NCBI GenBank assembly: GCA_029532415.1
Contig: JAQOTA010000047.1
Coordinates: forward strand, 3,410,001 to 3,474,000
Length of the DNA stretch: 64,000 nucleotides
Direction of reading: 5' to 3'
DNA from: Marasmius tenuissimus
Lineage: Eukaryota; Basidiomycota; Agaricomycetes; Agaricales; Marasmiaceae
Shown here: piece after piece, positions 19,422-42,986 of the stretch
How the letters are laid out: each line of letters begins with the position of its first letter
Numbering within the stretch: the stretch's first letter is position 1
Notes under the pieces: model-generated
Database searches by the model: none
The model's input: only the letters and a program-made list of their open reading frames with translations
What the model was told of the DNA's origin: nothing
Program-made: the position numbers and the translations under genes

Positions 19422-19504
19422 AGCCCACCGCGAGGGTCGAACTCGCAGCCTTCAGATGCCTCGCCTTAAAAGTCTGACGCTCTATCCGATTGAGCTAGGC
19501 GGGC
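19422..19504 (-). tRNA. tRNA-Lys (anticodon UUU) with 9-nt intron
   Basis: The reverse complement starts GCCCGCCTAGCTCAATCGG. The 7-bp acceptor stem GCCCGCC pairs with GGTGGGC (one G-U). The D arm contains TAGCTCAATCGGATAGAGC. The anticodon arm is CAGA-CTTTTAA.., with stem TCAGA/TCTGA once the insert is removed. The T arm is CGAGTTCGACCCTCG. About 9 nt (AGGCGAGGC) lie between the base 3' of the anticodon and the rest of the loop, the standard position (37/38) for a spliced tRNA intron. The mature length would be 74 nt before CCA. It lies alone between the bestrophin and GATA genes. Confidence 0.9.
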
Positions 19505-27762: not shown

Positions 27763-28347
27763 TAGCACTTCAGAGACTTAACGCACAGCTTCAACCAACG
27801 AATGATCCAGAGAAGATATCAGTATCTTCACTGTCGTCGCTTCCGATTATGTTGTCGAACCCGGAGGCTCCGAGGAGTGACTCTGCAAGGAGTATTTTGT
27901 TTGGTGACCAGAGAGCTACCCAATTTTAGGAGGACATTCACAGGCTCCAGAAAAATATCCAACATATCCTCAGAATTCTGGACAAGGGAAAACTCGAGGG
28001 TAACGGCGCCGGCTCACCTCCGTTTTTCCGATCATGGCCCATGTCTTAACTCTATCGCCCCGAGATAAGTCGCTCGTCCTGCGAGCGTCAGATAGTAGGT
28101 TAATTATCACTTATGAATCTACCAAGGTAACGTTGTACCTAAAAGCACTTCAAGTACTTCAAGGGGGATGAGCCAATTTCCGTCACCGTGAACCGAGGGC
28201 CAACACAATCGAAACAATTTCGCAACCCGAAATGGATGCATATCTTGGATTATTTACTCTGCCTTGTTTAATCTAAACAGAGAATGGCAGGTTTGCAGCT
28301 TGACGCGGTACCGCAGATTATCTGTGTCTCCAGGAAGGAAACGGGCT
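27763..28347. other. Intergenic
   Basis: Includes a short open stretch (to 28068) that may belong to the cytoplasmic tail of the preceding relic. No other feature. Confidence 0.35.
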
Positions 28348-29117: not shown

Positions 29118-31400
29118 CAGCCCCCCTCCCGGCTTTTTGTTCTCGGCTTGGGAACACCAACAAATTCCTTGAAACCTACTTCAGTAGAATACAGACTATG
29201 GCGTTGACACCGGCAGGTACGAAGCGAAGAGTCCCATTGATAAGCATTGATGACGGAGCTGTTATGTTCGACTCCGTGAGGCGGATTGCTGGGAGGCGAA
29301 ATAATTATCGAAAAATACATGCCTGAATACAAAGGCAACGAAACAAACCGGAGAATTGGTAGTCAAGCTACCCAGCCGCTGCACGTTGTTGCTTGGGCCC
29401 CGAACAAGGCTATCGGCATTGTCATTGAGCGTGAGCGGGTGCTAACTGCGAAATCTAATCAAATGTCTGACTTTCAGAAATGTTGCGACAGCCGAATCGT
29501 CACCAGAAGCACCGTTAAAACACTCCACACCATGGTGCCACCTTGCTTCGTCCGATTGAATGAAAAATTGCCCAGTGAGTGCATGGACCCCACGAGTTGC
29601 CTCTGACGTTGCGAATGAAGGAAGACCTCTTGCCAAAACGAGAGCCGGAAGTGCTTTTTGCGACCCGCTTGTGTCCGTTGTTTTTGGCATTCTGAATGTC
29701 AGATCGGCTGTGAGCCCCACCGCTATAGCGAGGTATTTCGGCCTCTACGTGAGATGCAGGGTGGTTTGTGAGCTGCAGCGGCGTCTGAGTCATGACTCCC
29801 GAGTATCAGGTCAGGGATACGACTGCTGACACCTGTGAGTTTGTCTGGCGTCACAAAGTCATACGTCCCACATGTCCTCAATGCTACTGAAGGACAAAGG
29901 AGGCGAGGGAGATGGGGAAGATAGCATAGATACAGGCTGAACAGTCGTGTGGTTCATTTAGATAAACTCGGATCTCTAAACCTCTGGAGTGAGATCACGT
30001 CTGGGCCGCACTGCGTTGAGCCATTTTGACGTCCTACCTTTGGAAGAGCTATTGGGATGGGTACAACGATAGGATGGAATAGTAAGCTATAGTTCTCAAT
30101 AGGAGTAAGGATTATGAAATGATACACACGATACAGTGAGGGAATCATGACAACAACAGCGACATGGAGTGGTGGCCAACCTAGGGTGATATACCTCAAA
30201 TAGCGGGAGATAGCTCGACTTGTGCAAAGCTAGGCTGTCTGGGAAACGTCGCTACTGATACAGGAACAAATTCTTCACGCCGCACTGCTCATAAGATGAT
30301 ACCTATAACAATCAGGTCGAGGGCACGCGCATGGTGTGACAAGCTTACCGCTAGAAGGTCCAGAGCCCGTTGTTTTGGGGCTTTGACCGCTCCGCGCCAG
30401 CAAGGTTGGTGTATCGCCATTATCAGCGAGGAAGAGCTATCTATGGTGGATACTGTGTCAGAGGAGAACGCCCCTATGTAAAGCTGAGTGCCTACGTGAC
30501 GGTAACGCGGAGCATAAATGCCGAGGAACATCTGATACCGGAAGGAACACCAAGGAGGGAAGCCTGCACTAAAGGCGGAAGGGACGAGCGAAAGGAATGA
30601 TAGTGAGGCCTCAAGAAGTTCGTGTATGCGAGCTCCCTCGAGGTGGCGTATCACCTGGGAGTCACTGCACAATCGTGACTGTGTCCGAAGATTGCATTTT
30701 AGAGAATGAAACTCAATTCTCGAGGATGAGGTCCCCGCCTGGATGAACAAAGGCACAACGACGCGTGCTGGACGTTTAGAAATCCCAGAAACAGCGGCAA
30801 AGGTTGCTTGTGTGCAACTAGTAGCAACGTAGAATAAACAGCTGATTGGGGGGCGAAGATGACGCCTGACATGCAGTTAGAGTTTCTTTGTGAACGTCGT
30901 GTGCTTCTCCAACACCACAAATTACGGCTGTTTATCGCTAGCCGTCTTTCTGCTACCGGGTATTCTTGAGGAAAGAATGTCACCTGAAGATGATATAACA
31001 AGCGTACCTGCACCAAACGAGCGAAAATTTCTCGATTCTAATCCCTGCTTCGGCTCCTGCATCGATTTAAAGTCCGCTATCCTTGAAATCATTGATTTGA
31101 GGTATGGTAGGTTACTGTGAAAGATGTATTTGGATACTGTGCACCAAAAACGACAAAGAACTTCGCGAGAGCACTTTGACAATGAGTAGCGGAAGCGAAT
31201 GAAGCAGGGAGCAAAGCTTACCTGGACGGGTCAATCACCAGAATCGCATACTGTAGATGGCTTTTGTGAGGGGTTCATGTTGGGATTTCAGTGGGATCCA
31301 TTCAGACAGGGCGAAGGAGCTGAGCGTGACAGCTGTGACACAATGACGCCTGGTCAACCGCTCCAATTCCCGCTACTGACGTAAGGAAGTAGAAGGGTAT
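29118..31400. other. Gene-poor interval
   Basis: Several open stretches on the minus strand (29450-29790, 29960-30200 with a hydrophobic run, 30290-30750, 30920-31180) look protein-like in parts, but I could not connect or identify them. They may be a decayed gene. Confidence 0.35.
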
Positions 31401-31869
31401 TTACCATGGTGAAAAAAAAAAGCTCGCTTCGTGAGAATTCTGCCTTTTGGCGCCCAAAACGTGACCAACAGACGCCGTTCATCCTCGAAAGCGCCGTCCA
31501 AGCGCCATAACACTCAAATCTAGCGCCATCCATACAAATTTAAGCGCTACTCCGTACTGAATTTCTCTCGATGCAAGGGGAAGAATGACAGCTCGCCCAT
31601 TCAGTCGGTGAGGCTTGGCGCGACAAAAATTGGCGCCATGTCAGCCCGTTAAGCGCCATGTCAATCTTTTAAGCGCCGCTCATGCCGTTTATAAGCGCTG
31701 TCCCTCGCTGTCCTGGACAACTCTGCCACAACGCAGCTTTCTGTTGGGTCTTCTTAAGCACTCAGAAGCTGCTACTCGGACCAAGATTCAGCATGATGAT
31801 AACCATCATGCACCTCTCAAGCACAGCGTCTTCGAGAGCCATTAGAGACTCCAATTTCAACTTTGGGTA

Positions 31870-31907
31870 ATTACGAGGAGCTGGCCAAAGGCCGGGCGAC
31901 GAGTAAT
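31870..31907. repeat. Conserved hairpin with tandem G-A internal loop, copy 1
   Basis: Outer stem ATTAC/GTAAT encloses GAGGAGCTGGCC-AAA-GGCCGGGCGACGA. The core is shared with copies at 32606 and 41233 while the outer stem differs but stays paired. Confidence 0.6.
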
Positions 31908-32605
31908 GCTCTCTGTTAGCATTCGTACTCAACATCTGACTAGCATGTTCATGAGTGTATCCGACTCATCACAGTACCAAAAAACAGGCACAATATCAAT
32001 GGAGTTGCTTCCAAAGCCCTCAGGAGTCAGGCCTGGGCCCTGTACTATAAGCTGTATGGTAAATCCATGATCTGTATCCCAATTTGAGTCTTCCATAGGA
32101 TTGTAAACCGTTATTTGAGGCCTTGCTACAGTACAGTCATTGACATTTCAGTAGCGGGCCGTGCCGCGTAAGGCGGCGACCAAGGTTATACCAGGCTGAA
32201 AAAAAAATCTCTTTGCGTGGAAATTGCACATTGGCGCTGAAAATTCCCTTTCATGGTAACGAATAAGCGCCATAACAATACAAATGCCCCAAAATAGGCG
32301 CCGCCATTCAAATATGAGCACTTTCTACGCAGAGTTCTAAAAAGAAAATTCTATGCAACTCGGGCTGGGGGAAGGACGACTGCTCGCCCATTCAGTCCTT
32401 CAGGCTTGGCGAAAAGTCTTGGCACAAAAAACAAGCGCCGCTGGCATTCAGAGCGCCTAAGACGCTGCAGGCTGCAATTCAAACGAACAGGCGCCGGTAT
32501 TCAAATTTAAGCGCTTCCTATGCGACTCGACTTGGGGGAAGGACGACTGCTGGCCCATTCAGTCCGTCACGTTGGGCTCCCAAGGCAAACTCCATGATGA
32601 GAACT

Positions 32606-32647
32606 GCAATACGAGGAGCCGGCCAAAGGCCGGGGGACGAGTATTGC
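32606..32647. repeat. Conserved hairpin with tandem G-A internal loop, copy 2
   Basis: Outer stem GCAATAC/GTATTGC (7 bp, perfect) encloses GAGGAGCCGGCC-AAA-GGCCGGGGGACGA. Confidence 0.6.
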
Positions 32648-32902
32648 TGTGAATCTCTCAACCAATGACCATTGACAATATTTAATCAGTTAGTACTACT
32701 ATAGTCTGGTATAGTCATGATTGTGTCCTATTGCGTACGTACCACATGAAAACATGTACATTGAAGCCTGGGTCTGAGGCCCCTACTACAGTCTTCCATA
32801 GACTTTACAGACTTTAGAGTCGTCTCAGGCCTCAGTGCAGACTGTATGGTACAATTGTCAGTACATCAGTAGCGGGCCGTGCCGCGTAAGGCGGCGACTA
32901 AA

Positions 32903-33813
32903 CTTATTCGCAAATAAGGAGCCGAACAAACGGGCGTTAAAGAGCGCTTGATCCCTTTCACCCCAACCATCATGCACTCGCCGCGATTTTTCGTTGCTAG
33001 TTGTCAACGATAGCTTAGTTAACTCTCCGGATCCTCGAGGTGTCCTGGCCTTGTAGTATCTTCTAGCAACGATGCGGAAAGAAGTTCGAGCTTCGAACCT
33101 CTTCAATTCCTCCCGAGTGGGAGCCTCGGAAGGTTCTTCGGCCACAGTTTTGTTTACTTCCCGCTACTGCGAAGCTGGGGAGCAGGTACACTATCTCGCC
33201 CGGTGCTTATAACTCACAATAATTTTCTGCTCAACGGGGCGAAGCAGTGAAAGTAGAACCAGGCTTTTCGAACGCACCTTACTCGCCACTTTCGGTCTTC
33301 GGATACTACGTTCTCTCTGGGCTCGTCTTAACCTCTAGAAGCCCCCTGTATTCAACTGAGCGACTTGATGGTATTGATATCGCGGGTCTCTCGGAAAACG
33401 GAATATAATATAGGGTCTACCGGTGCCAACAACACTTCCTGGCACACCGTGCCTGTGACTATTATCGAGGGCTTCCCGCGCTTTACCTTGTATCGTCCTT
33501 GTCCTGTATAGTCTGCAAGAATATCACAGGACCCATGCCCGTGCTATATCTACGTGCGGCGTTGGCCCCATCCACAATTCGTAACGATCATATCTTCGGG
33601 TGGCGGTCACCAAGTCCCTGGCCGGATTATCAGCGCGATGTATTGAATCGTTAGACTCACGAATGTTCCTTCCCCTCTGAGATTGGGATCGACCGGTAAA
33701 CTTCGCGTCACCGCTCAAATTCTGCTCAACGTATCTTGGCTGCCTTTTTCGTGCTCAATTTGATTCGTGATAGCTTTAAACTACCAGGCCCTTTTATTTC
33801 CTCCCGACCCCCA
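32903..33813. other. Intergenic
   Basis: No gene seen. Open frames at 32858-33145 (minus) and 33524-33718 (minus) have no recognisable content. Confidence 0.4.
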
Positions 33814-35286
33814 CTACTTGCAAATTGGAACTCCCCAGAAACACTGTTGACAGTTGGCGGTACGTGTCGTAGTTCTGATCCTCCAACTGAAACTTATTGT
33901 TGCTGTAGTGACATTTGACAAAATTCTTCATGTACTTTTAGGGATTTACGCGTGCGTACTTATAGCCTTTCAGCCTTCAATCATCAGCCGCCAATGGGCC
34001 TTGTGCTCGAACACAGATGGGAATGGGCTCTCACCCTTGATTTTGAATGGAGGTTCATATCGGGGCAGAAGAAATTTCGTTGGCCAATGGTGAGCTTTAG
34101 GGCCGAACTATAAAGAAATGGGTTCACAATGATCTAGATCTTCTATTTCTATGCACGATATGCTGTGTTAGCTTCGTTTATCGGGATCATAGCTTCAAGA
34201 GATATACACCAGTAAGTTCGCACTGAAGCTTGAGGTCTTGTGTGCTTTCTTGATAAATGGAACGAAGTCCTATCAACTGTGACATCTTGTTTCTATTGGT
34301 CCCGATTTTCGGGACGACTTCACTCGGTGTTGCCAGCTTAAACCTCGCTATCCGAACGTAAGGCAATGTCACTGCGTTTCCTTCATTTGCTACTTACGCC
34401 GACACGATTTTCAGTATGGCCATTTGGGGAAATGACCGACTTGTGGTGGTTGGTCTAACTATCCTTCTTGTAGGACAATTCGCAGCCATCATGAGGTCAT
34501 TTCCTGCCGGTATTAGAGGCAGGTATGTCGAAGGTATCGGCTGCGTGACCAAATCAGTCGAAACGGAAATCTTTGCTACCTTATACATTGTGACAATGGT
34601 GGTCGACTTCGTCATACTCTCGCTGACCGCGTACAAGACATACGTAGAGTACCGAGACATGTATCACGGCGGTCTCATCAAGCTCATCTTTAGGGATGGT
34701 CTGACATACTTTGTTGTGGTGTAAGTCTTCTCTTTTCCTGCCCAAGGTGTTACGGCCTGAGTTTATCTCTAGATTCCTCTCAAATCTGTTCGCAATGGTC
34801 CGGGCCGTAATCTCAGTTTCAGAAATCTAGAGCAATTATTCACACATATCTCTTTCTAGATCCTCTCGCTGCTCAATCTCAACCCTATCATGGCCATAGC
34901 AGCAGAGTGAGTCTCGCTCTCGTGATCTAATATCTCAATCTAACACAATCGTAGTGCACTTTCCTCGATGATAGCCACAATAGGAGCATGTCGACTTGTC
35001 CGTCGTTTGCACCGCTACGCGGTCGATAAACCACGCATACCAACCATGTAAGTAGTTCCAAGGTCGCTCCTTCATAGTAGTTTAAACCTGTAACTAAATC
35101 TCGCCTTTGCATTCAAGTTCACACTCGCTGCCAACGACCAGGTCACATACCCGGCGTGCGCTCAGCCAGGCTAACGCCGAAGCACATATAGAGGCATGTC
35201 AATTCCTGAATCGTTCCGACAGCCTCATCACATCCACTGACCATCTCCCTTTTCTCAGGCGACGACCTTCACCCGCGGAGATGTGA
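33814..35286 (+). CDS. Basidiomycete seven-helix membrane protein, copy 1 (start codon not found)
   Basis: The only plus-strand member of a five-copy family. The exons read WNSPETLLTVGG, VTFDKILHVLLGIYA, WEWALTLDFEWRFISGQKKF followed by RWPM, IFYFYARYAVLASFIGIIAS, SPINCDILF..LNLAIRT, MAIWGNDRLVVVGLTILLVG then ATLYIVTMVVDFVILSLTAY.. to LIFRDGLTYFVV, FLSNLFAMVRAV, ILSLLNLNPIMAIAA, SSMIATIGACRLVRRLHRYA, and a hydrophilic tail ending RRRPSPAEM, stop 35284-35286. About nine introns sit at the same places as in the other copies. The equivalent of the conserved MG[I/L]DW start (33814) reads CTACTTGCAAATTGG, with no ATG, and no upstream in-frame ATG is evident. The gene may be silent or use another first exon. 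Function unknown; the topology resembles receptor-like integral membrane proteins. Confidence 0.75.
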
Positions 35287-35607
35287 GAGAGCATTACTCA
35301 TCGCCCTGTGACGATGACCCAGAAGGGGGGTAGAGCTCTCGACGAAAATTGCATGAGGATCCGTGTATCAACAGGTCTTTGCCAGGGCTCTGAGCACTTT
35401 CCTCCCTTTGTAGTCTACTCGTACTAATCACGTCGCATGTATTGGTAATTTCGCGAGCCATGATATATGCTCCCGAGATCCTGGGGTGTGACAATGGATT
35501 GAGGGTGCTTGCTTTGTGTGAACTCCTGTCGACCAAAGAATTGGGTAAAATTCGCTATTTTCTGTCGAATAAATATAGGCTGGGGCTCAGCCCACCGTTC
35601 GCAGAGT
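35287..35607. other. Intergenic
   Basis: Nothing seen. Confidence 0.4.
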
Positions 35608-36279
35608 ATGCACAAATGCCGTCTTGAAGGAGTACTTTGTGCGGAATGTCGCCTGGAAACGAGGTCTCAACCAATGTTTTCGTGGTATCTCAATCTGAAG
35701 TCCAGAAATCCATTGCTGGGAGATTCAACCAGCGTACGGTACGCGTCGAAAGTTACGTTGATTATTTTCCTGTCGACTTTTGACCGCGACTTCAATTCCT
35801 CAAGATCGCTACCAACAGAGTTGCCTCGTCTTATTGTAATGGTCTTCAGAGAGATAGCTCTGGACACCCAGGAACGATCGTCATGGCGGGTAGCCACCAT
35901 CATTGGCGGCAAGTGTCCTACTCTATACGATAAATCCCTAAAAATCCCACAGGCCGCGACCCTAAATGTTCTTCACCGTTCCGATACACGAATGCCATTT
36001 GAGCCGTCTGTGGATACCAAATTATCTAGGCTCCCGGTATGCGGAGGTGTAATGATGGAGCTTTCTCGCTGTTCTTGCTCCACTATAAGAAAAAGTGTTA
36101 TCGCTTTGGAAGGCGCTGACAAGGGAGCGAATACATTTCAGTCACCTGGCACTGTCACTGTACGCCCGGGAAGCTTGCTCATCAGGGGTATCTACGATGA
36201 ATGCAATACTTGCGGGAATGGCGCCTGTGGCGAGTTGTATGATTCGTTCGTTTGTAATGTTTCACCTGTTGTTAAGTAG
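35608..36279 (+). CDS. Unidentified ORF, 223 codons
   Basis: An unusually long open frame for this interval, from ATG 35608 (MHKCRLEGVLCAECRLETRS) to TAG 36279. No signal peptide or membrane segment. The C-terminal part is Cys-containing (ELSRCSCSTIRKSV, DECNTCGNGACGELYDSFVC). No family recognised. Length alone makes chance unlikely but not excluded. It has no visible introns, unlike its neighbours, and no TATA box. Confidence 0.3.
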   Translation: MHKCRLEGVLCAECRLETRSQPMFSWYLNLKSRNPLLGDSTSVRYASKVTLIIFLSTFDRDFNSSRSLPTELPRLIVMVFREIALDTQERSSWRVATIIGGKCPTLYDKSLKIPQAATLNVLHRSDTRMPFEPSVDTKLSRLPVCGGVMMELSRCSCSTIRKSVIALEGADKGANTFQSPGTVTVRPGSLLIRGIYDECNTCGNGACGELYDSFVCNVSPVVK

Positions 36280-38827
36280 CTCGTTTTGACCTAAATTCCT
36301 AACCTCAGTAAGTAGGAATTCTCAAGTAACATTCCTCAAAAATATGTTAATCGGCTTTCCGCTCCCTTCGTCAACGTCTAACTCAGTTCAGGGTCGCAAT
36401 GGCCGAGTTTCCTAACTCTGACTCCATTGCATAATCATTGCTTCCTGTCAAAGCCCCCGAGCACAAGATCGACATCCGTAGACCCTTCAGGAAAGGGCTT
36501 GTCAACTTGCAATATGGGCATCAGCTCAAGGTAATGCACAAAAGACATTAGGCTTGCCTCTAGCAATTCAATAAAGGAAGCCAGGAGCAGAACAAGCACG
36601 CGTATCGCATCGCCGTGTGAGATTGGAGTAGGTCGGATCTGGTTCCTCAGTTATCACTCCTTCGCTTCCGTGTGGAAGGAATGGTATCCTCGCTGAGGAC
36701 AATCAGCGCGGTGGTGGTGGCGGCTGTGCGACAAAGGCGTTGAATGGAAGGGTCCACCAGAGTGGAACAACTAGATGCTTACAATCTGAAGAATACGCTA
36801 CCAGTGGAGATTATTCTACGGGGTATCCACCTTAGGGAGTGATCTGGTAGTGAATTGTGATAAGCTTTGAGGATCTGGCCCTTGGTAGCCGACTCCAGTC
36901 ATAACCGACTAACCTGATCGCCGTTGCCTGCCTGATCTACTAAAACACTGCACACGGGTCAGACAAGAGAGGTAATCCCTAGTTATAAGTAGCTTACTCA
37001 CCTGAAGTACGCCGTAGATGGTTAGAATTTTCTGAGCGCCACCGTTCTGCATGAGCTGGACTTGACGCAAGTCAGGAAACACTGGTAATGTGGACACTCA
37101 CCAAAAAGAGCAAGGCCGAGGGGATAGATGCTCGCACATGCGCCTCATCTTTGCCTCTTATGCTACCTGCGGCTTGCCACGAAGTCTCAGCAGTCTGCCG
37201 GGAAATGACACATCAGAGAGCGAAAATGGACTGAAAAGGAAAAACATCTTCACGGTAACATTTAGTACATGGTGAACAAAACGCCAGAAAGCGTGTGGCG
37301 CCCTCGAAAAGTTGCTGATCGGAAGCTGCCTGTTCGATAGGAATGACTGAAACCCGGACGATTGGAGAGCGAGGGGCGGCGACCGAAGGCATCTAGTCTT
37401 CGTGGGCGTCGTCGAGTTCCCACAGTCAATAGAAAGTGTTCTGCTCCTGAGTGTTTGGTAGGCCCTGTCGACTACCGAGAGTTCAGCGGAATGTTTCAGC
37501 TAACGGAAAATGAGGACGATGGAGCGTGCTTACCATGGGACTCGCCATCAATACATGCTCCCCTCTTCAACGCACGTTCTTTCATAGTCCATTCCGAGGG
37601 ATATCGCTGGCGTTTTTGACCCTGTAGATTAAAGGGTCCGAATAGAAGGTCTTGACGCGATGATCGGAGATTACTTGATAGGCAGCTTGATAAGTAGCGC
37701 GACCAAGTGATGAGCGGTGGTCAGCAGCGTGTTCAGTGAGACAACGCTTGGATAAAGCTCACTGAGAGAGCGTCGTGACTGGAATTAGGCGGAGATCCAT
37801 TCGTTGGAATGAGGGAGAAGAGAAAGGAGAGATGTCGCGATCGGTTGATAAACTCAGAACTGTGACAGATAGCGATCAGTGGCACTTCATTGTTATCATG
37901 TGACCGCCCAAACATAGAAGCAGCAAATTTAATGAGCGCTTGTGCGTGCCCGATTCCTTTCCCTCCAACCATCACGCTCATCTTGCACCCATCGAAGCTG
38001 GGAATCGTTAAGGTCTCGTCTTCGATCCTCCAACAACGGTACCCAGCCTTTATTAGAACAAGCATTCGGCAAGACCGATACCAATTATCAACCACCATCA
38101 GGCGTACAAAATCAGAATCATAACGTGTGTAATTCCTTGTCGCACTCGACACATAGCTGCTAACTAGAGATACATGAAATCATTTGATGAACATGTCGGA
38201 CTCGCGAGATGTCGTGTGTATTTGTAGATTACTTGTGTTGAACGAGCTTCTGACCAAAATTGAAAGGTGAGTTTCGTTGTCATAATCATGAGATTGTCCG
38301 TGTTTCGCGAGATCTGTTTGCTGTTTGCTGGAACTATATTGCCTCCGAATCTTGTAGGTCCGTCGTTCTAATGTGTAAATCCTCATTTTTTTGTTGAACA
38401 TGATGGATATCATGTGATACATATTGATGTGTTGTTTACGCGTCACACTATTTATAGAGCTACGCCTCTAGGAACACTTGCGCTCTCATGCAAGAATGTA
38501 TCTACGTAGTTATTGCTTCACAAATGACACTGTAGATATCTACTACGTATGTAGTTACATCAAGTATGATGCTTATAGTCCAAAGTGCGAGGCACAACGG
38601 ATGAAAGACTCATTAGTATTGGCTAAATACCTACTTCTAGTAGTAGTTTCATAGTATTGTAATTACTCTTACATGTACAGAAACTTGTGTATAAAAGCTG
38701 GTATTCCAAGGCCTTAAGCCTAAGGACAATCTACTCGATTATCACCTCTTCACAAGCATCTCAAGTCTACAAGAACACTCTGTGTATTACCCATGTGAGG
38801 TTTACTTCGTTATACCCACTGTGCACT
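36280..38827. other. Gene-poor interval
   Basis: The minus strand at 36930-37090 reads VFPDLRQVQLMQNGGAQKIL then TIYGVLQ before a GTGAGT donor, possibly an exon. The minus strand at 37740-38150 has a 139-codon open frame of unknown content. A plus-strand TATAAAA lies at 38691. No complete gene model. Confidence 0.35.
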
Positions 38828-39478
38828 TTAACTATGCTGGCTCAACATTTTTCGGAGCAAAGACAGCGAAGGACGATACCAACTGGTGTTCGGCCAGCGA
38901 AGTTTCTCCCTTGTGCACTTGGGGCACTTGATCCTTTGGCTGTCTTGGCTGTCCACGAATTGCTGTGTAATTTTGGGCAATCTGTAAGATCGCATCACGA
39001 CCTCTTGTGTATGAAACTCACCACCACTTTCCCTAGCCTCCAAGGGGGCAGGTTTGCCCAGCAGAACCTGGAACACTGGTTCTCCCGTTGGAAAACTCGG
39101 GGCCTCCTCATTTATCCAGCCTACCCCTTGATGGGCAACTTTCATTGAGTCAGTAAACCCGTATCACGTTGATCCCGAGCTCAACTCACCAGTCCAAGCT
39201 TCTTTTTTGTATTGAACCGTGTCTCCCTCGGGGGTTGTCATGAAACAAATATCCGAGTCAGCCTGAGCAATATCGCGGCTTTCGAGCCCTCTCGTGGAAG
39301 CCTCGAGCGTTTTGTTGACTCTGAATCTTGGTGGTGAGAAGTTGTTCCTTAACTTGAGAAGTAGTCCCCCCAATCCAGCTCCTTTAAAGCCTGGCGGTAG
39401 TTTTATCATATTACCTGGATAAACGGAGTTCATGTTTACTTTCGGCTCGACGGGTTGAAGTGGCGAAGGCAAGGCCAT
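38828..39478 (-). CDS. Unidentified two-exon gene
   Basis: Exon 1 (39478-39190) starts MALPSPLQPVEPKVNMNSVY and includes KLPPGFKGAGLGGLLLKLRN and DSDICFMTTPEGDTVQYKKE. A 63-nt intron (39189-39127, GTGAGT..CAAG) splices in phase to exon 2 (39126-38828): VGWINEEAPSFPTGEPVFQV then LLGKPAPLEARESGG.., ending LSLLRKMLSQHS. About 195 residues, soluble, no recognised domain. The phase-perfect intron favours this strand over an antisense ORF (38834-39148) that has a TATA-like box at 38691. It lies just downstream of the HMG-box relic on the same strand and could be its 3' part. Confidence 0.45.
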
Positions 39479-39783
39479 AGTCAATATTCTAGGTATGGCA
39501 ACTTCGGCCTAGCTAACCATTGCACCTACCTGACCCTACACATTGTATGATATCATTATCCCTTTGCCCTACATTACCCATATACTCCTCCATACTCCAC
39601 AACCCTTTGCCTTACTGATCGTACTTACTCCTACGTACATCATGCACAGTTGGACCTACATCATGCACAGTACATTCTACTCCATTCTACTATATTCTAG
39701 CTATCTTGTACTCTCATATATAAGCTAGCTAGGAATACCATACTACCTCAGCGGTTTGTACACCACTGCATGAGGCATTCTGC

Positions 39784-40331
39784 CTACTGTCTTTTCTCTC
39801 CTGCTCCCTGCAGTATTGCAACTGCCATCGTACGAACCGATTTCACAGGCTCTTTGGGCGCATTAGACTCGTCACGGCCAACCTTTGAATGTGACTTCTC
39901 GCTGGTCTGGTTCTCTGTAACAGGCACAGGTTCCTTGTTCTCCATGTTCTTCCCCTTCATGCTCTTTTCCTTTCCCCTATCAGACCTCATATGTTTCGGA
40001 TTACTTGGCCTATAGACGTAGTCTGGGTACATCTTCTTGTGCCTCTCCGCCATGTGCTGCGCTTTCTCTGCATACTCCACCTTCTCGGCAGCAGTGAGGC
40101 CATGCCACATTCCGGATATCACTCGAGATACCTTCCCCAAGGAATTGGGTTGATCTGGGCTGTCCCTTTTGATGATTTCAGTGATTTTTTTCGCTTCTCA
40201 TTTCGGAAAATGATCCATTTGTTGTGTGGACGCGGAATGCGTCCTGGCAAGCAGCGAGCAGGCGAAACAGATTTCTTCTTTTTCGGTGCAGGCCTCTTCA
40301 GGTGATAGACAATGGGAGAAGGTAGAGGATT
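39784..40331 (-). pseudogene. HMG-box protein with a one-base frameshift
   Basis: The minus strand encodes a basic lead-in (RPAPKKKKSVSPARCLPG), then an HMG box: IPRPHNKWIIFRNEKRKK up to an A7 run at 40185-40191, and in the next frame ITEIIKRDSPDQPNSLGKVS, RVISGMWHGLTAAEKVEYAE and KAQHMAERHKKMYPDYVYRP. An eighth A would keep the box in one frame. The layout (RPhNkwi.f, W-x-L-x4-K..Y..A, YPDYxYRP) is that of MATA/SOX-type HMG DNA-binding domains. A hydrophilic tail ends ..GAGEKRQ at 39784. The first exon and start codon are not found; a TATAAAA lies upstream near 40375. It is a relic or carries a sequencing error in the homopolymer. Confidence 0.65.
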
Positions 40332-40379
40332 CCGATTGCTGACAATGTCTTCTCAAAAACGAATCTAATCAGGCACATT

Positions 40380-41232
40380 TTATACCCCACAACTTGGCCA
40401 ACCATATTGAAATTTGTGTTTACGACGTGTATCTCATTGTTGTTCACGCTGATTTGTGTATGCTCGGACCTGTCAGACCATCGAGGCTGGCCACATTTCG
40501 CAATTGTTGGGGGTACCCCTCGCCGTTTTTGTCTCATAATACACACTTTGACTCATTGTGTTCCCTAGGTCATTGTTTTTTGAAAGCCATAAATGGCGAA
40601 CAATATGTGGCTCAAGGCTTGATACGCGGAGAACACGTGGTGGACGTGCCACTGCCGGACCAGAGTCCCCGACTCTCTTGAGAGGAGGGCTTTGTCGTTG
40701 CCCGATCATAGTATCACGTGAGAGCACTCACGTGAATATAGAGCACGTGCCTATCAGGACTTGTTTCCTGAATTGTCGCTCACAGGAAAAATTCCCTCCT
40801 TTCCACTTGAGAACACCACTATTCAGAGCCTGGATCCCAACCTTTGCACGCTATCATGAATGGCATTGCACAACTGGTAGATCTCCAGCAAGCGCACGCT
40901 CTCCTACTTGGAATCTGGATGGACAGCTCTCAAGCCTCACTGGGCACCGCCCCAGGAGTTCAACCTATCCTGCTTCCTTACAGCTATTTGCAAGATCGTA
41001 GCACATTTTGGGCGTGAGCTTCAGATTACTAAGCGCTCCAAGCTATACAAAACAGAGGGCCACCTAGACCTATCGGGAGTTCCTGTATGAAGAGCAAGTT
41101 GAGATACGTAGGCCCACCCCACAAATTGTATTGCAGAACATGCAAATTATATAGCTGAGTCATCGAGAGCTCACGCGCGCAAACATGTAAATAGCTGTAA
41201 AGAGGTTTTCTGCTACAGAGCTCCACCCCTGG
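40380..41232. other. Intergenic
   Basis: No supported gene. The plus-strand open frame 40558-41001 has no recognised content. Confidence 0.35.
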
Positions 41233-41277
41233 GCGCTGCGAGGAGCTGGCCCTTCAAGGCCGGGTGACGAGCAGCGC
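41233..41277. repeat. Conserved hairpin with tandem G-A internal loop, copy 3
   Basis: Outer stem GCGCTGC/GCAGCGC (7 bp, perfect) encloses GAGGAGCTGGCC-CTTCAA-GGCCGGGTGACGA. Its flanks do not resemble those of copies 1 and 2. Confidence 0.6.
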
Positions 41278-41703
41278 TCTTCTGAATTGTTTCTTCTGCT
41301 GAACCGGTAACGTACCGGTGGGGAGCTGCTCTCGCTGTTGCACTATACAAAGGTCCTCGAGCCAAGGTTAAGTGTGGTCAACTCAGTCAGTTTCTGTCCA
41401 GCTCGTTCTGACCGCCTTGTTATTGCCTTCGAGTTGAAGATAAATGAGGCTCAGTTTGCACTCCTAATATAATCCAGCATAATTTACAAAAGCATAGGCA
41501 GTTTGAGGATTGTCCCGGCTCTGCTGGTTGAGAGACAGGTGGCTTATGCGCCATGATCAATGTTTGACCAGTGCCCTCAGATTCTTTTGAACTGAAGATG
41601 ACTATATCTCCCTACGAGTCAGAGTGGCACGTCGGTGTTACTGGATAAATCCCTTGTCAGTTTCTGATAAAGTCACATTTTGAGATTTGTTCGTCTTTCC
41701 AAC
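41278..41703. other. Intergenic
   Basis: Nothing seen apart from a small inverted repeat ACCGGTAACGTACCGGT near 41304. Confidence 0.4.
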
Positions 41704-42188
41704 TATTTAAGAATCCCTAGCAAATTTCCGCACAACTCCCACTGGGTGCAAAATAACATAATACGCGTTGCTTTATTCAAACTTTATGTTGAAATTAACC
41801 TGGATTTTGTGTTTTTTAGAATAAATTCAACATAAAGTTAGCATAAAGCTACGTGTATTATACTATCTTGCACCCAGTGTCCAGGAATTTGATCTGTTGA
41901 CATGCCAAACACGACCACGTGCAGATAATCCCAAATTGGTATTTTCTGTGAAGGTGGACTTTGCTTGCACCCACTTTGAGGCGGAGGGAATTGATAAAAT
42001 GAAGATTCTGCTGATTGTAGTAGACCATAGTAGCTCAACGAGAGTCAAGTCAAAGAGGTACGGGTGGTTTGAGGCGGAAAAGGGAAAATAATATTCCATT
42101 TTTGGGTTATTTGCACGTGCAATTGTTTAGCGTGTCAACAGATCAAGTTCCTGGAGTTGTGCAAAAATATGCTAGGGATTCTTAAATA
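41704..42188. mobile_element. Outer foldback MITE, interrupted by a second MITE
   Basis: The arms begin TATTTAAGAATCCCTAGC at 41704 and end GCTAGGGATTCTTAAATA at 42188. The inverted match continues inward through GCACAACTCCAGGAA and TTGATCTGTTGACA for about 100 bp per arm once the inner insert is removed. Non-coding. Confidence 0.8.
41740..41879. mobile_element. Inner 140-bp CACTA-type MITE with 3-bp target duplication
   Basis: The ends are CACTGGGTGCAA / TTGCACCCAGTG. The whole element folds into arms of about 55 bp (..TTTATGTTGAA / TTCAACATAAA..). It is flanked on both sides by TCC (41737-41739 and 41880-41882), which occurs once in the uninterrupted partner arm. Confidence 0.85.
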
Positions 42189-42986
42189 GATGTCATCTGG
42201 AATGATTGAACGAATCCCGAGTCTAGTGTCGAGTCAAAGTAGAGTTACTACTAAGTAGAGAGTCGGGGATTGGCGCGCTCGTGTGCCCCTCAGGATTGGG
42301 GTTGGGGAGATTGGTCGTGGACTCCTGGCGCGAAAGTCATGTGACCGTGTTCTTTGCTCAGCCGGCCGGGCTTGCGGCATGGACTCACTTCCGTGGCTTT
42401 GGCCTTCTGTTCTTGAAATTTCTGAGACAGAGAACACGGCAGCTTCGGAGGAGCTCAGAGGTACGTGAATACATTGTCATCAAACTTCCACCCATTCCGA
42501 TTTACGACCGGGTTCAAAATACCACTCGCAGGCTGTCAACTGGTGGATACACCCAAAGATGGCCTATTTAGGAGGCGAACATTACGTCGGGAGACTTGGT
42601 GACACCTGTATCACTAACAGTAGCTGGAAAGCATCACTGGTTGTGGATATTCGCTACCACAATACCGAGGCCGTGCTTAGACGATTATATGCCCTCCTAT
42701 TCCTCAATCGGATACATTAGTCAACCATCCGATGCCACAGTGGCGTCTTGGAACGCAGACGGCTATGTAGCGCGGGTCGCGAGGATGTCGGACTCTTCTT
42801 ATATACTTACAAATGAAATTGAACTATACAGCGCGCAGACGGAGGACAGCCCATGCTTGGAGCGGTCACAAAACCTTGTTGATATTCAGGTCGCCGTCTC
42901 AGGGCAAAGGGTAGCCCTGTCTTGGAGCTGTGTGAGTGAAAGTCGTCATCTGAGAGGCACAATTTTTTTTAGTAGATGCAATGAGA
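42189..42986. other. 3' flank of membrane-protein copy 2
   Basis: Contains a segment (about 42590-42980) homologous to the downstream flanks of copies 3 to 5, for example ATGCCACAGTGGCGTCTTGG at 42731 against ACGCTACAGTGGCATCTTAA at 45960. The duplication unit therefore includes non-coding sequence. No gene. Confidence 0.5.

Follow-up and report, generated by a model that had tools for sequence, protein, structure and literature searches.

A hairpin with covarying outer stems and two predicted tandem G·A steps inside short Helitron2-type elements of Marasmius tenuissimus

Helitron2, HINE and DINE-1 elements are described, in the available portions of three papers, as having short asymmetric terminal inverted repeats, left and right terminal hairpins, a T-rich target, non-coding short copies and copies arranged head to tail (PMC3627910, PMC4067079, PMC5148889). 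Besides the terminal hairpins, the descriptions in those portions mention a core block in Drosophila, microsatellites and central repeats, and no covarying internal hairpin. For Helraiser, the accessible part of the work has its authors proposing lagging-strand synthesis on the peeled-off strand (PMC5876387). Plasmid and phage systems, according to the part of the source available, begin their complementary strand with host enzymes at sites termed sso or ssi (PMC5714925).

In a 64,000-nucleotide stretch of the Marasmius tenuissimus genome (the window), a hairpin had been predicted from the letters alone at three positions, with one fixed core and outer stems that differ completely yet pair. 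The three hairpins, with that core and those stems, are present at the predicted positions on the plus strand (Table 1), and the core pattern had no match in 100 shuffles of the window. They sit inside short non-coding elements with Helitron2-type ends, which fall into at least three terminus classes. The elements share with the systems described above the inverted repeats, the terminal hairpins, the non-coding short copies and the head-to-tail copies, and possibly the T-rich target, and their ends agree with those that the available text of Bao and Jurka gives for Helitron2 (PMC3627910) and that of Thomas et al. for HINE (PMC4067079). Many short AGCGCC/GGCGCC words occur in A and B (31400-31720 and 32230-32560) and also in host flanks (L031).

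Table 1. Hairpins and elements in the window
Feature	Position	Strand	Details
Hairpin 1 (family A)	31870..31907	+	P1 ATTAC/GTAAT at 31870-31874/31903-31907; core 31875-31902
Hairpin 2 (family B)	32606..32647	+	P1 GCAATAC/GTATTGC at 32606-32612/32641-32647; core 32613-32640
Hairpin 3 (family C)	41233..41277	+	P1 GCGCTGC/GCAGCGC at 41233-41239/41271-41277; core 41240-41270
Element A, non-coding, holds hairpin 1	31367..32189	+	Helitron2-type ends, CCCGC class
Left subterminal inverted repeat of element A	31369..31379	+	CCCGCTACTGA
Right subterminal inverted repeat of element A	32148..32158	+	TCAGTAGCGGG, then terminal hairpin
Element B, holds hairpin 2	32190..32907	+	Head to tail behind A, left end missing
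Element C, holds hairpin 3	40666..42296	+	Ends CCCCGACTCTC 40667-40677 and GAGAGTCGGGG 42258-42268

Comparison of flanks sorted the copies into clusters of 22, 4, 4 and 2 and three singles. Stem sequence divided the cluster of 22 into two families of 11 copies each, A and B, and the other families were named C, D and E; two A copies (L011 and L027) lie within one long duplication. Families A, B and D start with TTCCCGCTACTGACGTAAGGAAGTAG and finish with TCAGTAGCGGGCCGTGCCGCG plus about 20 bases, and they have an 11-bp subterminal inverted repeat (CCCGC class). The subterminal inverted repeat of class C, CCCCGACTCTC/GAGAGTCGGGG, is likewise 11 bp, and the window element C is longer than the 935-base family consensus. 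One of the singles, L035, is a member of a 738-bp family with the ends TCCGAATTCG/CGAATTCGGA and a 10-bp inverted repeat. At the left terminus, a hairpin in which the left inverted repeat takes part folds for A/B and for C and is weak in the L035 family (-3.5 kcal/mol), and the right-end fold is clear for A and less clear for C, D and L035. All 23 of the CCCGC-class left ends in loci L009-L040 follow TT, and the right ends finish in AT. A search for the ends of E and L040 by means of inverted repeats gave none that was convincing.

Head-to-tail copies occur, the A-B pair of the window among them. Some second units lack their first bases and abut the right end of the preceding unit (window, 32184-32200; L015:2963-3500; L029:2670-3260), and rolling-circle copying could leave such truncated units. 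A reading of the tandem copies as LTRs or retrozymes was dropped on finding the terminal inverted repeats.

The third copy had been said to share no flanking homology with the others. This stands for A against C, whose ends are unlike and whose alignable part is confined to the hairpin (81% identity in 42 bases), but copies 1 and 2 do share flanks, as A and B are adjacent related repeats, about 67% alike in the alignable stretches outside the hairpin and ends. Within the CCCGC class, A or B aligns with D only over the left end (44 to 103 bases), the right end (34 to 35 bases) and the hairpin (82 to 85% over 34 bases), so that between families with unrelated interiors the hairpin and the end regions are what can still be aligned; weaker BLAST matches in these comparisons have E values above 0.2. 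The copies lie in transposons, but because several families share only the hairpin and within-class ends, drift of a single transposon, the alternative named in the original prediction, does not explain them. Something maintains the hairpin. Insertion of a micro-hairpin into palindromes was also considered and is unneeded, as within families homology continues past the outer stem.

Read from the aligned copies, the outer stem (P1) would have about 4 to 8 pairs, with a T-A pair closing it near the core. The core would then run G·A, A·G, G-C, G·A, A·G, that is, two tandem G·A steps flanking one G-C pair, and the steps probably have sheared geometry. Beyond them are predicted a G opposite a variable base, a C-G pair and a bulged purine; the inner stem that follows would have five pairs and be capped by a loop of three or six bases. 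One family reads GAG at the point at which the rest read GGG, and for this reason the one extra purine on the 3' side is best taken as a bulge. Kink-turns and tandem sheared G·A motifs have in common with the hairpin tandem G·A steps of the 5'-CGAG-3'/5'-CGAG-3' type beside stems. A canonical kink-turn is nevertheless unlike it, as the hairpin appears to place two G·A steps on either side of a single G-C pair and to lack the 3-base bulge.

For covariation analysis, the 35 copies in the loci examined were reduced to 18 distinct hairpins of 48 to 51 bases (alignment A1), with a structure of seven P1 pairs, the G-C pair between the two G·A steps, and a six-pair inner part with one bulged purine. 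Paired cells made up 96.8% of 252, a value reached by none of 500 shuffles, and neither the number of cells changed on both sides nor the covariation score was reached by any of the 500. Two further measures were uninformative, namely, the six pairs changed on both sides (145/500 shuffles) and the number of pair types (409/500). With 24 distinct strings from a looser pattern, 98.3% of 239 cells were paired, again in 0/500 shuffles. In the inner stem, a G-C pair is replaced by A-T in four further copies (two distinct strings). There are twelve one-sided pair changes, all of the G·U/G·T type, against four unpaired cells.

We also permuted the P1 strands among six lineages, taken from eight stem representatives with G and L040 (related to C) left out. 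With their own partners, 39 of 42 positions pair, and this was matched by 1 of the 720 arrangements, which is the true one; the P1 stems of G and L040 have 6/7 and 5/7 pairs. P1 covaries over these six lineages, and the further copies pair in their outer stems as the window copies do. The P1 covariation, the paired cells and the inner-stem replacement are all in keeping with the proposal that selection acts on a structure of RNA or of single-stranded DNA. A double-stranded protein-binding site was rejected, given that at least six P1 sequences serve and that neither half of the core is an inverted copy of the other.

The exact core pattern occurs at 34 places in the 71-Mb, 70-contig host genome, and a looser pattern, with nothing fixed but the closing triplets and both strands of the core, occurs at 46, one of which (47 bases, without the inner stem) is probably due to chance. 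Two fixed-length patterns, allowing up to three mismatches, match 90 and 21 places; together with one extra place from the looser pattern these make 112 distinct places. The reversed control of each of the four patterns gave no match in the host genome. A slightly wider core pattern had no match in IMG/VR and four in a prokaryote contig collection of 257 Gb, all four of which lack the TRY/RYA closing triplets. A covariance model of the hairpin (R1), applied to 57 sources, recovered 40 hairpins with scores of at least 47 bits, one place being counted twice. The four prokaryote matches score 26 to 31 bits with R1, and a weak match in the window at 27862 scores 13 bits.

No Rfam family fits the hairpins at the gathering cutoff in a covariance-model search of the window, where the only hit, elsewhere, is a tRNA gene (19422-19504, minus strand). 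At nine hairpin loci, a search with E values up to 10 gave only three weak matches, far below gathering scores, one of which, RF01276, lies over the hairpin at L015 (18 bits against a gathering score of 49).

The position of the hairpin relative to the ends was counted in three classes. In two of these, 45 of 46 short units carry it, and its orientation with respect to the ends is the same in all of them, with no case of the opposite one. The CCCGC class, in which a short unit was defined as a right end less than 3 kb behind a left end (27 units) or behind another right end (6 units), contributes 33 of 33 units under 3 kb, and class C contributes 12 of 13. The distance of the hairpin from the ends varies among the counted units. 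Orientation within a class may be inherited, so there may be about three independent cases. The counted units of the three classes hold 53 of the 112 places (36, 14 and 3), and at least three of the 59 outside belong by sequence to the CCCGC class (L015:1885, L032:4055 and L034). Two longer class C pairs (7.5 and 24 kb) also carry the hairpin, and three class C left ends have no right end.

The hairpin was found at 3 of 16 lone CCCGC left ends and at none of the six CCCGC right ends that have no start less than 3 kb away. With R1, ten extra right-end regions divided into five with a hairpin, which are five short units, and five without a near start (L066, L067, L068, L072 and L075; four of those six right ends, plus C8), which had no hairpin by the model in 600 to 850 bases. 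Among the 13 long left-end matches of the L035 class, a hairpin is present in 3. The host genome has 21 matches to PF14214, the RepHel match used here. Three lone CCCGC left ends are followed on the same strand by a lone right end 68, 62 and 94 kb on (G000:C3:3122660-3190782, C7:3297233-3359070 and C34:175818-270105), and each of these intervals holds one same-strand PF14214 match, where 0.07 would be expected by chance. Their RepHel open frames are 2,280 to 2,544 amino acids long, and together with a RepHel beside a lone left end on C56 they form one group, 62 to 79% alike and at most 54% alike to the others. The intervals, defined by ends and RepHel match alone, are possibly giant Helitron2-type elements, perhaps with nested insertions. 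In the CCCGC class, a RepHel-coding partner with the same ends thus appears to exist. No hairpin lies in the three intervals within three mismatches. Its absence there, together with its low frequency in the L035 class, counts against a general need for the hairpin.

Our tentative preference is for the hairpin as a strand-specific cis-acting module in the rolling-circle copying of short non-coding Helitron2-type elements, most likely as single-stranded DNA. The strand that reads GAGGAG is the one expected to fold, and the one-sided changes, all G·U/G·T, suit it as the folding strand. It is also the strand on which the right inverted repeat and the terminal hairpin come last, and, if the identity of the transposed strand is as in the Helitron model, the one that a Helitron Rep would be expected to peel off. 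The hairpin would then most likely act in single-stranded form, on the DNA strand that is displaced or circular. Since the mobilized product would be a DNA strand, selection on DNA is the plain expectation, and a hairpin with a set strand but a variable distance from the ends suits a site that tolerates changes of position and not of orientation. In the most specific version, it would be a start or loading site for complementary-strand synthesis; small circles would need such a site, and large elements may do without. The supposed likeness to sso/ssi, as far as the available part of the source describes them, would be that of a single-stranded start site read by host enzymes and lying apart from the Rep site (PMC5714925); sso/ssi sites are prokaryotic, and we claim no sequence relation. 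Covariation, presence in nearly all counted short units of two classes, fixed strand, the Helraiser lagging-strand model and the plasmid and phage origins together lead us to favor a cis-acting single-stranded DNA hairpin, perhaps a start site. The class C short unit without a hairpin counts against it, as do the absence of the hairpin from the three long intervals and the five lone right-end regions, its low frequency in the L035 class and the 59 places outside the counted units. So does folding, which for about the same three hairpins is weaker as plus-strand DNA (z of 0.04, -4.34 and -1.87) than as RNA (-2.61, -4.59 and -3.61).

Nearly as likely is a role as RNA, with the hairpin as a protein-binding or stability element of a small-element transcript or as the core of a longer non-coding RNA. 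The RNA folding z scores of -2.6 to -5.3 in all six hairpins calculated (three from the window and three from other families), stronger than for DNA, and the G·U type of the one-sided changes speak for it. About 200 bases around the hairpin that look common to E, G and L040 (L021, L033, L032:3940-4190, L038 and L040; MAFFT alignment judged by eye, without computed significance) would suit an RNA gene, and the functional unit may be longer in these. However, DNA transposons that encode no protein are not known to need an RNA, an RNA role would not require that the hairpin keep one orientation with respect to the ends, as it does in the counted units, and Rfam gave no match in the window or at the nine loci. 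A second stem-loop is seen by eye downstream of the hairpin in E, G and L040. The L021 hairpin (G000:C19 near 640,000) lies between astacin-like metallopeptidase genes (PF01400 in some homologues), several paralogues of which are on the same contig.

Less probable by a wide step is a functionless passenger, an ancestral hairpin that has persisted through inheritance or through exchange from one element to another. The families of a class are indeed related, and the hairpins of C, E, G and L040 look alike beyond the core, but the compensatory changes in P1 and the survival of the core where the remainder of the element has diverged speak against such a passenger. We consider it very improbable that the elements carry a new small self-cleaving ribozyme. 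An internal loop that is fixed, rich in purines and set between two stems, is spread by mobile elements and is fitted by no Rfam family would be in keeping with it, but no observation points to cleavage, a single two-stem hairpin lacks a known catalytic core, and we can name no benefit of a cut to a DNA element; the hint of a ribozyme in the original prediction gained no support. Guide RNAs of the Fanzor/TnpB type lie next to the right end of the element. The hairpin does not, and its being the scaffold of a Fanzor (TnpB-like) guide RNA deserves almost no credence: PF07282 has no match in the host genome and matches in 6 of 14 control genomes, even though, in the available text, Fanzor1 genes are reported in Helitron2 elements of a green alga (PMC3627910).

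The elements are thus known transposons with a structured module for which no description was found; our literature search, whose coverage excluded most subscription papers, gave no internal hairpin of this kind. The module is a clear covariation case for a double tandem G·A motif without an Rfam match. It bears on how the displaced Helitron strand becomes double-stranded and on why some short derivatives multiply. The hairpin, present in nearly all counted short units of two classes and absent from the three long RepHel intervals, gives a concrete sequence to manipulate. Taken furthest, the single-stranded DNA reading would make it a eukaryotic counterpart of single-strand origins, a rather doubtful proposal at present: an orientation-locked hairpin with two tandem G·A steps in its core that would let small elements become double-stranded, may have been passed between classes with unrelated ends, and would decide which short derivatives multiply.
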